This document shows, in pieces, positions 3,514 to 12,473 of a stretch of DNA of 14,487 bases; positions within the stretch are counted from its first letter, which is position 1; each line of letters opens with the position of its first letter. The notes beneath the pieces were generated by a model. That model saw only the letters and a list, made by a program, of their open reading frames with translations. It made no database searches and was not told the DNA's origin. Location of the stretch: positions 1 through 14,487 of the forward strand of contig CALCPC010000046.1 in assembly GCA_937900975.1 (NCBI GenBank), read 5' to 3'. Source of the stretch: an uncultured Paracoccaceae bacterium (GTDB lineage Bacteria > Pseudomonadota > Alphaproteobacteria > Rhodobacterales > Rhodobacteraceae). A program made the position numbers and the translations under genes.

Positions 3514-4443
3514 TCAAAACCCGACATGCGCCGCCCCTTTTAGGCCCAGCAACCCCCGCGCCTCGGCGGGGGTCGCGATGGCGTTGCCCTGCGCCTCTAG
3601 GACGCTTTTCACCTTTGCGACCTGTTCCGCGTTTGAGGCGGCGAGCTTGCCCCGCTCGATATAAAGAGAGTCCTCAAGCCCCACGCGGACATGCCCGCCA
3701 AGCTGCGCAGACACCGCCGCCAGCTTCATCTGTTGGGCGCCCGCGCCGATCACCGACCAGTGGTAATCGGCCCCGAACAGCCGGTCCGCCGTGCGCTTCA
3801 TAAAGACCAGATTATCGATCTCGGCCGCGATACCGCCAAGGATCCCCATCACGAATTGCAAAAAGATCGGCGCTTTGAACAGCCCCGCCTTTAGGCAAAA
3901 GGCCAGGTTGTAAAGATGCCCGACATCATAGCACTCATGCTCGAACTTCGCATGATGGGGCGCGCCGCCCATCGCGTCGGCGACGGCGCGGATATCGGCG
4001 AAGGTGTTGCGAAAGATCGCGCCCTCGGATCCGCGCAGATACCCCTCCTCCCAATCGAATTTGAACCGCTCATATCGATCCGCCAAAGGGTGCATCGCGA
4101 AGTTGAGCGAGCCCATGTTAAGCGAGCACATCTCGGGCGAGGCGGCCATCGCCGGGGCCAGCCGGTCTGCGATCCCCATCGTGATGCTGCCCCCGGTCGA
4201 GATGTTGACGATGGCATCCGTCTCTGCCCGGATCGCCGGCAGAAACGCGCGGAAATGCGCGGGATCGACCGAGGGTTTGCCGGTTTCGGGATCGCGGGCG
4301 TGCAGGTGCAGGATCGCCGCGCCGGCATGGGCCGCGTCGATGGCCTGGCGGGCGATGTCTTCGGGCCGATAGGGCAACGCGTCCGACATGGTGGGCGTGT
4401 GGATCGCCCCGGTGACAGCGCAGGTTATGATCGTTTTCGCCAT
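3514..4443 (-). CDS. Beta-keto acid cleavage enzyme (BKACE, DUF849 family)
   Basis: The 309-residue protein is a BKACE-family TIM barrel. Known members, such as 3-keto-5-aminohexanoate cleavage enzyme, combine a 3-keto acid with acetyl-CoA and release acetoacetate plus a CoA thioester. The zinc ligands His46 and His48 are present in AILHLHARDPETGKP at the same positions as in the Cloacimonas enzyme; STGGS follows at 82-86, then SLNMGSLNF and HVRVGLEDSLY, whose Glu257 is the likely third metal ligand. The specificity-determining pocket cannot be read by eye, so the keto acid is unknown; dehydrocarnitine and aminated keto acids are among known family substrates. The ATG at 4443 has GGAG 7 nt upstream inside the end of the cyclase gene, one nucleotide after which it begins, implying translational coupling. 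Confidence 0.92.
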   Translation of the reverse strand: MAKTIITCAVTGAIHTPTMSDALPYRPEDIARQAIDAAHAGAAILHLHARDPETGKPSVDPAHFRAFLPAIRAETDAIVNISTGGSITMGIADRLAPAMAASPEMCSLNMGSLNFAMHPLADRYERFKFDWEEGYLRGSEGAIFRNTFADIRAVADAMGGAPHHAKFEHECYDVGHLYNLAFCLKAGLFKAPIFLQFVMGILGGIAAEIDNLVFMKRTADRLFGADYHWSVIGAGAQQMKLAAVSAQLGGHVRVGLEDSLYIERGKLAASNAEQVAKVKSVLEAQGNAIATPAEARGLLGLKGAAHVGF

Positions 4444-7091: not shown

Positions 7092-8150
7092 CTACTCTCG
7101 ATCCCAGTCGCGCAGCGGTGTGGCCCCGGCGGCGCGCATCGCATCCATATAGCTTGTCAGAACCTCGGTCCCCGGAAGGCCCTGCCCGTCAAGCCCCGCC
7201 GCCCAAGCCTGCGCCGCGTTCTCCATCCCTTCCGACCAGGCCCTGCGCATGTCGGCGGGCGCGTCGGCGACCGTGGCGCCGTTCTCGGCCATGACGGTGA
7301 AGGCGTTTTGAACCGCAGTTTCCAGGGCCGAGACATACCACTCCCCCGTCTCGGCCGCGGCCTCCGTCAGCGCTGTTTGCACGGTCTCCGGCAACCCCTC
7401 AAACCAGGCCCGGTTGGCGCAAATCGCTCCCGCATATTGCGCGCCGAGACCCGCCCGGGTGATGTAAGGCGCCACTTCAAAAAGCTTGCCCGGCAGCGCG
7501 GCGGAGGCAAAGACAATCACACCGTCGAAGACGCCGGTTTTCAACTCGTTGTAATACGTCGTCAAGTTGCCCGAAACGCCAACTGCGCCCGTTCCCGACA
7601 ACCAGTTCAGCGCGGGCCCAGGCGCACCGATCTTTTTGCCGGCAAGATCCGACAGGGCCGTGACCGGGAAATTCGTCATCAAAAGATAGTCGTCGATAAC
7701 CATCGGTGCGCCGATATAGACCACGCCGTTGTCGGCATAGCTTTGCTGCATTTTGGGATCTTCGACCTGCATGCGGTGCATCAGATCGCCGATCTTGCGC
7801 GCGTCAGCAGTGACGAAGGGCGTGTAATAGGTGACGTTTTGCACCGCCAGCTTGGCCGGATCGAACAGCGATTGACAGGTGCCAAGCTCTGCCAGGCCCG
7901 CCTCGACCGCCTCAAGCTCTTCGCCGACACCGGCGATCGACCCGCCATAAAGGCCCGTGAAGGTCATTGTGTGGCCCGTCCCCTCCAGCCGCGCGGTCAC
8001 GCCCGGGACAAAGGCCGCGTCCAGCATCTTGACCCAGCGAAAAACCGGCGGGTGCCCCGCGGCGATGGTGGCGCTGAACGTCTCGGCAAGGGCCCCGGCC
8101 GGGACACCAAGGCTTACGGCCAGCAGCGCGGCCTGCGCTATGCGTTTCAT
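7092..8150 (-). CDS. dctP: TRAP transporter periplasmic substrate-binding protein (DctP-type)
   Basis: The 352-residue protein begins with a Sec signal peptide (MKR, hydrophobic core, likely cleavage after AGALA at residue 22). The mature part reads as a DctP-family solute receptor: IAAGHPPVFRWVK, LYGGSIAGVGEELEAVEAGLAELGT, and NLTTYYNELKTGVFDGVIVF. In most TRAP receptors a conserved Arg follows LKGLK-type sequence in the hinge strand and clamps the ligand carboxylate (Arg147 in SiaP); here the equivalent stretch is LAGKKIGAPG, with Gly175 in that position. This suggests a ligand without the usual carboxylate contact or another binding mode. The ATG overlaps the tetR stop as ATGA, so translation is coupled to the regulator. 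Confidence 0.94.
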   Translation of the reverse strand: MKRIAQAALLAVSLGVPAGALAETFSATIAAGHPPVFRWVKMLDAAFVPGVTARLEGTGHTMTFTGLYGGSIAGVGEELEAVEAGLAELGTCQSLFDPAKLAVQNVTYYTPFVTADARKIGDLMHRMQVEDPKMQQSYADNGVVYIGAPMVIDDYLLMTNFPVTALSDLAGKKIGAPGPALNWLSGTGAVGVSGNLTTYYNELKTGVFDGVIVFASAALPGKLFEVAPYITRAGLGAQYAGAICANRAWFEGLPETVQTALTEAAAETGEWYVSALETAVQNAFTVMAENGATVADAPADMRRAWSEGMENAAQAWAAGLDGQGLPGTEVLTSYMDAMRAAGATPLRDWDRE

Positions 8151-8815
8151 GATTTCCTCCGCTTATGGTTCTGATTATTTTGGTTTTCGCGCGCCAAGGC
8201 CAAAACGCCGCCCTTGGCAAAGCAGGTCAACTGGCCAAGCACCGCGTCAAAGCTTTGCATCCCGCGCCGCCCCATCAGCCGCTCCACCCGCCCATCGCGG
8301 CCAATGACCGAGATCAGCGCGCCGAGCGCGAGGGTATAGCTCATGGCCGCCGTCGCCCGGTCGGCACCGGGCACCGCATCCTCCAGCGCCGCAACAAAGG
8401 CCAGCGCGGTTGGGTCATAGTGCTTGCGCACCAACGCGCGCTCCCGCTCTTGCCCGACGACGAGGCCACTGAAGATGCGGGTATACGTCCCCTGCCCGCC
8501 CGACGGGCCAAGCGGGGGACGAAACAACGCCTCAAGGATCCGCTCCAACGCGTGGTCGGCATTGCGGTCCACCGCGCCAAGCAGCGCCAAACGCTCTGCA
8601 TTTATGGTTTGGGAGCGTTGCGCAATGACTGCCTCGTAAAGCCGGTCCTTGCTGCCAAAGTGATAGTGCAACAACGCCTGCGACACCGCCGCCCGCCGTG
8701 CAATCGCCTTCATCGCGGCGCCGTCAAAGCCACGCACGGAAAACTCCACCTCCGCGGCGAAGAGGATTTTTGCAACGGTGTCCGTGGCGACGGGCTTAAG
8801 GCTGTCCTCGGGCAT
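8147..8815 (-). CDS. TetR/AcrR-family transcriptional regulator of the TRAP/BKACE operon
   Basis: The 222-residue product has a TetR N-terminal DNA-binding domain at about residues 12-64: ILFAAEVEFSVRGFDGAAMKAIA, then the helix-turn-helix AAVSQALLHYHFGSKDRLYEAVI. The C-terminal ligand-binding part is typical in length but not assignable to a ligand. It is first in the minus-strand operon and its stop overlaps the dctP start by four bases (ATGA). A perfect palindrome lies 17 nt upstream of its start, inside its own promoter, so autorepression lifted by the transport substrate or a metabolite is the natural model. There is no clear Shine-Dalgarno sequence, and the predicted transcription start coincides with the ATG, suggesting a leaderless message. 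No other Met lies near the N-terminus. Confidence 0.9.
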   Translation of the reverse strand: MPEDSLKPVATDTVAKILFAAEVEFSVRGFDGAAMKAIARRAAVSQALLHYHFGSKDRLYEAVIAQRSQTINAERLALLGAVDRNADHALERILEALFRPPLGPSGGQGTYTRIFSGLVVGQERERALVRKHYDPTALAFVAALEDAVPGADRATAAMSYTLALGALISVIGRDGRVERLMGRRGMQSFDAVLGQLTCFAKGGVLALARENQNNQNHKRRKS

Positions 8816-10140: not shown

Positions 10141-11571
10141 ATGAGCAAAGTGATAGACGCAGAGGCCGCGGCCAAGCTGGTGCCGAACGGTGCCGTGCTG
10201 GCTGTTAACAGCTCAAGCGGCCTTTGCTGTCCCGACAAGGTTCTTGAAGCCCTTGGCGCCCGCTTCGCGGCGGAAGGCGCCCCCCGCGACCTGACCTCCA
10301 TCCATCCAATTGCCGCTGGCGATTTTTTCGGCGTCAAAGGTGTCGACCACATTGCGCGGCCGGGGCTTTTGACCCGGATCATAGGCGGCTCCTACCCCTC
10401 GGGCCCAACCCGGGCGGAACCGCCTGAAATCTGGAAAATGATCGGGCGCGAGGAGGTCGCGGCCTACAACGTCCCGTCTGGCATCGTCTTCGACATGCTG
10501 CGAGAGGCGGCGGCAAAACGTCCGGGCGTGCTGACCAAAGTGGGGCTAGAGACCTTTGTCGACCCCGATCTTGAAGGTTGCGCCATGAACGCTGCCGCTG
10601 CCGCCCACCCCATTGTGCGGCGCATGGCTTTCGAAGGGGAGGATTGGCTCTATTTCCCGGCCATCGCCCCCAATGTCGCGATCATCCGGGCCAGTGTCGG
10701 CGACGAGGCCGGCAACCTCAGTTTCGCGCAGGAGGGGGCAACGCTCGGCGCGATGGAGATGGCGCTGGCGGCGCATAACACAGGCGGCACAGTCATCGCG
10801 CAAGTGCGCGCGCTTGCCGCGAAAGGATCGCTGCGCCCCCATGATGTGGGCGTGCCCGGCATCCTGGTCGATGCCATCGTGGTGGCCCCCGATCAGATGC
10901 AAACCACAGCGACGCCCTACGATCCCGCAATCTCGGGGGAGCTTTTCCGCCCGCTCGACGCCTTCGACACACCCGAATTCGGCGTTGGCAAGGTCATTGC
11001 CCGCCGTGTTGCGCAGAGTTTGCGCGCGGGGTGGGCCGTGAACATCGGCTTTGGCGTCTCAGCCAACGTGCCGCGGATCTTTCTGGAAGAGGGCCAGCAC
11101 GGGGCCGTCACTTGGGTGATCGAACAAGGTGCGATAGGCGGCATCCCGCTGCTCGATTTCAAATTTGGCTGTGCCGCGAATGCCGAGGCGTTTGTCAGCT
11201 CTCCCCACCAGTTTTGCTATTTCCAGGCCGCGGGGTTCGACGCAGCACTCCTGTCGTTTCTCGAAGTCGACAGCGCGGGCTCCGTCAACGTCTCGCGCCT
11301 TTCGGCCGTGCCGCACCGCACGGCGGGTGCCGGCGGCTTTGTCGACATTACCGCCCGCGCGCGGCGGATCGTCTTTTCTGGCACGTTTATGGCCGGCGGC
11401 AAGACCGAGATTGTCGATGGCAAACTGGTTATTCGAGAGCCTGGGCGGGTGGCGAAATTCGTCGATGCCGTCGAGCTAGTGGCGTTTTCGGGCCGTCGCG
11501 CGCGCGCGCAGGGCCAGGCGGTGCACTATGTCACCGAACGCTGCGTGAATGAATTGACACAAGCGGGGTAG
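10141..11571 (+). CDS. Family I CoA-transferase (Pct/YdiF-like propionate/acetoacetate CoA-transferase), truncated by in-frame TAG
   Basis: The 476-residue reading frame is a fused alpha-beta family I CoA-transferase, which moves CoA between carboxylic acids through a glutamyl-CoA thioester. Family features are AVNSSSGLCCPDKVLEALG near the start, GSYPSGP, YNVPSGIVFDMLREAAAKRPGVLTKVGLETFVDP, and VIEQGAIGGIP, where Glu328 is the likely catalytic residue. The ATG at 10141 has GGAGG four bases upstream; an ATG at 10111 lies inside the operator and is rejected. The frame stops at TAG 11569-11571 (codon 477), yet translation of the same frame beyond it continues the family's C-terminal tail to 11715. 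The undisrupted length would be 524 codons, the usual size of Pct enzymes. It could activate the acetoacetate released by BKACE. Whether the shortened protein works is unknown. Confidence 0.85.
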   Translation: MSKVIDAEAAAKLVPNGAVLAVNSSSGLCCPDKVLEALGARFAAEGAPRDLTSIHPIAAGDFFGVKGVDHIARPGLLTRIIGGSYPSGPTRAEPPEIWKMIGREEVAAYNVPSGIVFDMLREAAAKRPGVLTKVGLETFVDPDLEGCAMNAAAAAHPIVRRMAFEGEDWLYFPAIAPNVAIIRASVGDEAGNLSFAQEGATLGAMEMALAAHNTGGTVIAQVRALAAKGSLRPHDVGVPGILVDAIVVAPDQMQTTATPYDPAISGELFRPLDAFDTPEFGVGKVIARRVAQSLRAGWAVNIGFGVSANVPRIFLEEGQHGAVTWVIEQGAIGGIPLLDFKFGCAANAEAFVSSPHQFCYFQAAGFDAALLSFLEVDSAGSVNVSRLSAVPHRTAGAGGFVDITARARRIVFSGTFMAGGKTEIVDGKLVIREPGRVAKFVDAVELVAFSGRRARAQGQAVHYVTERCVNELTQAG

Positions 11572-11715
11572 CTGGTGACGGAAATCGCACCGGGCCTTAA
11601 CCTCGACCAGGACGTGCTGGCCGCAGCCGCCACCCCGATTGCCGTCTCACCAAACCTCCGAGAAATGGATGCGGCGCTTTTTCGTCCTGAACCGATGGGG
11701 CTTTCGATACCATGA
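11572..11715 (+). pseudogene. Detached C-terminal tail of the CoA-transferase, in frame after TAG
   Basis: The 47 codons after the TAG stay in the same frame and read LVTEIAPGLNLDQDVL...SPNLREMDAALFRPEPMGLSIP before TGA at 11713-11715. EIAPG(L/I)xLxxDVL and a final PMGL are, from memory, the ordinary C-terminus of Pct/YdiF-type CoA-transferases. The TGA overlaps the enoyl-CoA hydratase ATG at 11712 as ATGA, which fits the original coupled gene end. No start codon with a ribosome site is seen for separate translation. Confidence 0.85.
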
Positions 11716-12473
11716 CGCTGACGTGGGACGCCCGGGACGGCGTGGCGACGATCACCATCGCCCGGCCCGAAAAACGCAACGCTCTGCATGCCGCGGCAAT
11801 CACCACGCTGGCCGAGATCTGCGCGACGCTCGACGCGCGCGAGGACATTCGCGCGGTGATCCTGACGGGAAGCGGCGGGACGTTTTCCGCCGGCGGCGAT
11901 ATAGGGGCGTGGAGTGCGCTTTCTCCCGCGGCCTTCGCGCGCCATTGGGTGCGCGATGGGCATGCTGCGTTCGACAGGCTCGCCCGGCTGACCCAGCCTG
12001 TGATTGCCGTGCTGAACGGGTCCGTGCTTGGCGGCGGGTTGGAACTGGCCGCCGCGGCCGACTACCGGATCGCCGAGACGCAGGCGACGCTCGCCATGCC
12101 CGAAACCGCGCTTGGGATCATTCCGGGCTGGTCGGGCACGCAACGCGCCGTGCGGCGGTTCGGGGCACAAACGGTGCGGCGGATGGCACTTTTTGGCGAG
12201 GTTTTCGACGCGGAGACGGCGGCGGCGTTGGGCTTGGTCGACCAAGTGGTGGCGACGGGCAAGGGCATGACCGCCGCCGAAACGCTGGCAAGCGCGGTGA
12301 CAAACCGGGCACCGGGCGCCACGGCGCTGGTCAAGATGCTGGTGAATGCGGCGGAGGGGGAGGAGCGCGAGCGGGTTTTGGAAGCGATGGCGGGACAGAT
12401 CGCGGCCGGGTCGGAAGAGCTTGCATCCGGGCTGCAGCGTTTTCGATCCAAGAAAAAGGGCAGCGACACATGA
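11712..12473 (+). CDS. Enoyl-CoA hydratase/isomerase (crotonase family)
   Basis: The 253-residue protein is a crotonase-fold enzyme that adds water to trans-2-enoyl-CoA. The oxyanion-hole segments FSAGGDIGAW (58-67) and NGSVLGGGLELA (102-113) are present. Both catalytic glutamates of true hydratases are there: Glu111 in GGGLEL and Glu131 in PETALGIIPGWSGTQR, 20 residues apart as in rat mitochondrial crotonase (144 and 164). This favours hydratase over isomerase or hydrolase activity. The ATG overlaps, as ATGA, the TGA that would end the full CoA-transferase frame, so it was evolved for translational coupling; the premature TAG 140 nt upstream may reduce its translation. Its own stop again contains an ATGA (12470-12473), but no recognisable protein follows in that frame. 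Confidence 0.94.
   Translation: MTLTWDARDGVATITIARPEKRNALHAAAITTLAEICATLDAREDIRAVILTGSGGTFSAGGDIGAWSALSPAAFARHWVRDGHAAFDRLARLTQPVIAVLNGSVLGGGLELAAAADYRIAETQATLAMPETALGIIPGWSGTQRAVRRFGAQTVRRMALFGEVFDAETAAALGLVDQVVATGKGMTAAETLASAVTNRAPGATALVKMLVNAAEGEERERVLEAMAGQIAAGSEELASGLQRFRSKKKGSDT

Follow-up and report, generated by a model that had tools for sequence, protein, structure and literature searches.

The window, by which we mean the whole 14,487-nucleotide stretch of DNA that was analysed, carries a CoA-transferase gene that is interrupted by a single in-frame TAG and followed directly by an enoyl-CoA hydratase gene. The frame opens with the ATG at 10141 and continues for 476 codons up to the TAG at 11569-11571, beyond which 47 sense codons lead to a TGA at 11713-11715; the hydratase ATG, at 11712, overlaps this TGA as ATGA. 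The original prediction had described the stop, the overlap and the absence of a frameshift, and all three are borne out by the sequence, in which the joined frame is continuous through the TAG. The features are:

10141..11568, plus strand: N-terminal part of a CoA-transferase of the YdiF/Pct type, 476 codons (PF01144; PDB 2ahu)
11569..11571, plus strand: in-frame TAG, codon 477 (read from the sequence; a leucine column in relatives)
11572..11715, plus strand: same-frame family tail, 47 codons, then TGA (tail profile, 86.3 bits)
11473..11640, plus strand: codons 445-500, holding all 8 differences from the near-identical protein P0004 (protein comparison)
11712..12473, plus strand: enoyl-CoA hydratase/isomerase, intact (open reading frame; PF00378, 155.9 bits)

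Residues 1-476 contain a CoA_trans domain (Pfam PF01144, 76 bits), and the truncated frame is similar to E. coli YdiF (PDB 2ahu) from residue 4 to residue 474, with an E value of 5.6e-82; the domain and this long similarity place the protein in the YdiF/Pct type, without the uninterrupted frame of approximately 523 residues, since a TAG occupies codon 477. The glutamate motif lies ahead of the stop and is retained (window vieqgaiggi, aligned to tvetgpiggi in YdiF), and its glutamate, invariant across 18 aligned sequences, is presumably the catalytic one, with the same role as in YdiF. Judged by its sequence, the gene is an acyl-CoA:acetate/3-ketoacid CoA-transferase of this type, an ordinary metabolic gene. 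It has in common with YdiF/Pct-type enzymes (E. coli YdiF, and 72-75% relatives in Shinella, Ruegeria and Shimia) its domain, joined-frame length, glutamate motif and C-terminal tail; it differs from them in the interruption at codon 477 and in its residues at 446, 448 and 470, none of which is seen in any of 212 other members.

The codons that follow the TAG were compared to a profile built from the tail columns of other aligned family members. They score 86.3 bits, while the best of 2000 shuffles reaches 11.0 bits, and only three of 1248 six-frame segments of the window exceed this latter value, all of them lying in the frame of the tail and overlapping with it. The same tail is also aligned in E. 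coli YdiF, and by itself it has no Pfam or NCBIfam match at 0.001. Since its profile score lies far above those of shuffles and of other segments, the stretch after the TAG is, at the level of sequence, the true CoA-transferase family tail, as had been proposed.

The pairing with a hydratase is common, since a hydratase relative lies directly downstream of the CoA-transferase in 67 of the 98 relative loci at 55% identity or above (3 of the 98 have fewer than 400 bases downstream). In 26/98 of these loci the stop reads ATGA, judged by the letters alone, the overlap with a start being putative in each. Weaker translational coupling to the hydratase, as a consequence of the TAG, is plausible. Elsewhere in the window, on the minus strand at 3514-4443 and near TRAP-type transporter genes (DctM, DctP), lies a gene for a beta-keto acid cleavage enzyme whose score of 495 bits exceeds the 430-bit cut-off of the NCBIfam model for 3,5-dioxohexanoate:acetyl-CoA acetone transferase.

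Relatives at codon 477

We examined a family sample of 394 genomes, of which 115, the window's own genome included, gave matches at an E value of 1e-60 or better. Among the listed matches, an internal stop was found in none of the 133 others, which come from 114 other genomes of the family; going by the listed ranges, codon 477 is covered by 130 of these, and the other three end before it (G316:C118, G202:C248 and G327:C13). An overlapping set of 101 genomes is in agreement, with 27 other full-length matches that are free of internal stops. From a named genome collection, which holds no contig under 3000 bases, 80 relatives were kept, with a best identity of 75%; these include Shinella, Ruegeria, Shimia, uncultured Rhodobacteraceae and others.

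The joined frame has the usual length of the family, as originally predicted: 104 of the 105 relative loci taken from the 101-genome set and the named collection are complete and encode at least 523 residues, and the remaining one leaves its contig at residue 514. Column 477 is a leucine, the residue that had been suggested for this position, in 211 of 213 distinct aligned rows beside the window. These rows were drawn from the best 120 of 7296 database relatives and the 98 loci at 55% identity or above, and none of them stops short of window residue 514. The truncated protein of the window itself does not appear among the best 120 of 7296. Homologues that end at codon 476 were sought and none was found among the 104 complete loci, and the idea that the family normally ends at this point was rejected on the basis of these lengths and of the leucine column.

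The two other genomes of the window's genus lack a full-length copy of this CoA-transferase, their best matches having E values of 7.4e-6 and 3.2e-5. Horizontal acquisition of the gene is possible, given genus-mates without a full-length copy and 74-75% relatives in Shinella and Ruegeria. A separate observation concerns a record titled Enemella evansiae (L068), which carries a 75% relative at 1106-2674, coordinates identical to those of the relative (L003) in G004, a genome of the window's family. Enemella evansiae is an actinobacterial name, and the record may have a wrong title or represent a mixed bin.

Differences from a near-identical protein are clustered around the stop

A near-identical relative, P0004, is a 414-residue partial protein from a 2405-base contig, which its source record describes as a CoA-transferase (MAG) from a Pseudomonadota bacterium. 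It is 98% identical to the window protein and reads through codon 477; no match of comparable identity was found in the genus or family samples, where the best other match is at 75%, and its contig is absent from the 80 relatives kept from the named collection. The comparison was made at the protein level, residues 1-110 being absent from P0004. All 8 differences, the stop included, fall within residues 445-500 and none within 111-444, and simulation gives a probability of 6e-6 that 8 random places among 414 would lie within such a span. The TAG is thus part of a cluster and not a lone change, and the original view that one isolated base change would account for the interruption does not hold, as seven further amino-acid differences accompany it.

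The three residues unseen in other members, at 446, 448 and 470, fall in this stretch, a stop at 477 being excluded by construction from any protein list. At site 452 the situation is reversed, the commoner family residue being that of the window and the rarer one that of P0004. Ten other residues are common to the window and P0004 and unseen in the remaining members, indicating that the lineage of the two is itself divergent. Moreover, 6 of the 212 other members also carry three or more otherwise unseen residues in conserved columns over a span of 33 positions, so that the unusual residues are by themselves no more than suggestive, and it is the contrast with P0004 that carries the argument. 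A second copy in the same genome, as donor of codons 445-500, was rejected, since the search returned a single match, the window gene itself.

Predicted effect on the protein

In the predicted model of an intact relative, P0003 (mean pLDDT 68.7 overall, 83-93 in the blocks covering 471-520), residue 477 lies in a strand formed by residues 476-482, which is followed by a helix (488-495) and a further strand (501-508). The stop would thus remove a conserved structural part, falling inside a predicted strand with a helix and a strand beyond it, and the 476-residue product probably does not fold properly. If the sequence is taken literally, the truncated enzyme is probably inactive.

Other broken genes in the assembly

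The assembly that contains the window comprises 3.88 Mb in 907 contigs, at 78% completeness. We screened six multi-copy families in it for further broken genes. No match with a stop was found for Aldedh (0/16), ECH_1 (0/9) or Aminotran_1_2 (0/14), nor among the best 26 of 112 ABC_tran matches. Two of the 15 MFS_1 matches were flagged with a stop and neither was counted as broken: one, on contig C691, has a 428-residue frame and looks intact, and the other, on C674, is a contig-edge fragment that ends at its own stop and scores below the family cut-off.

In the AMP-binding family, one of 16 matches was flagged, with a TGA. This is a fatty acyl-AMP ligase gene (L149, contig C127, 523-2274) that is broken by an in-frame TGA at 1024-1026 into two pieces, matching PF00501 at 3-82 and 164-384. 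A second case, an acyl-CoA synthetase gene on the minus strand of contig C748 (L150, 7371-9381), was found by hand from two neighbouring AMP-binding matches; the reading frame changes near 8240 and an in-frame TAG interrupts it near 8006, leaving three pieces, which match PF00501 2-277, PF00501 299-384 and PF23562. Interruptions are therefore not unique to the CoA-transferase in this assembly. By automatic flagging alone, three better assembled relatives have 0 of 51 AMP-binding matches with a stop, versus 1 of 16 here. The excess of broken genes is nevertheless weak evidence, because it is confined to one family of the six. A codon-usage scan for split frames, applied to 37 loci of the same genome and to the window, gave no special prominence to the stop in the CoA-transferase; its list of split frames was set aside, as adjacent genes that share a frame seem to confound it.

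Origin of the interruption

We read the TAG as a stray stop that interrupts an ordinary gene in a single, fragmented draft assembly, and somewhat favour an error or strain mosaic over a real null allele, with a probability of roughly 0.55. The consensus would then be locally wrong or mosaic across about 170 bases, corresponding to codons 445-500; the wrong stretch could stem from thin or error-rich coverage or, alternatively, from two mixed strains merged in one contig. This reading is based on the intact relatives, on the clustering of all 8 differences from P0004, on the rough assembly and on the presence of at least two other broken genes, and it makes an assembly or sequencing cause somewhat more likely. 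Several observations count against it. P0004 is possibly another strain, in which case the clustered differences could be real variation, and at site 452 the rarer residue is on the P0004 side. In five of the six families screened, no broken gene was confirmed, and for the fatty acyl-AMP ligase there is no intact near-identical copy among the 120 matches listed (next best 61%), which is also expected of a real pseudogene.

The strongest alternative, which we regard as a serious possibility at less than even odds, is a real and recent null allele, in which a nonsense mutation would have arisen alongside either a local burst of substitutions or a conversion tract, the downstream hydratase remaining intact. 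The lack of a frameshift and the identity of residues 111-444 to those of P0004 are consistent with it, as are the interruptions in two more acyl-activating genes of the genome; in addition, the genus-mates without a full-length copy suggest that the gene may be dispensable in the genus. Neutral decay, however, should scatter changes along the gene, and residues 111-444 show none with respect to P0004, so that over the residues compared the pattern is not one of pseudogene-type decay. No donor for a conversion tract was found within the genome.

Programmed readthrough, recoding and a deliberate split are all unlikely. The original prediction was right to name nonsense mutation, pseudogene, error and readthrough as candidates, but readthrough is not upheld as the cause. 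Programmed or tolerated readthrough of the TAG, or its reassignment, would yield a full-length enzyme and would explain why frame and family tail are preserved beyond the stop; we judge it highly improbable, since TAG is a normal terminator (of the 12 complete genes of the window taken as real, 4 close with it), no tRNA with a CUA anticodon is present among the 17 recovered (from a genome that is 78% complete, with tRNAs for several amino acids missing), and no examined relative has the stop. A conserved programmed stop was rejected on the last of these grounds and TAG reassignment on the first.

Equally improbable is a natural split enzyme, in which translation would stop at the TAG and restart at the GTG at 11575-11577, so that a 476-residue body and a separate 46-residue tail peptide assemble into the complete fold, with residues 446-470 changed to suit the junction: the GTG lies 3 bases past the TAG, the GGGG at 11565-11568 is a weak Shine-Dalgarno-like run and the tail keeps the family pattern, but the cut would fall inside the predicted strand, unusual residues occupy conserved columns shortly before it, and no examined relative is split at codon 477.

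The interruption of the CoA-transferase most likely marks the gene as a broken copy of an ordinary kind, or else results from faulty assembly of the fragmented draft genome, with no new coding trick involved. Pseudogenes interrupted by nonsense codons and errors in draft assemblies are both well known in general, and the window resembles them in its single stop, its intact relatives and the other broken genes of its assembly; it differs in that such stops stand alone or amid scattered decay, whereas here the stop lies in a tight cluster of differences. The locus would be of significance only if the stop proved real and the enzyme were nonetheless made, in full length or in two pieces. It calls above all for caution, in that a stop which, read alone, resembles readthrough or a fresh mutation is seen, once relatives and assembly quality are considered, to point to a broken or mis-assembled copy.
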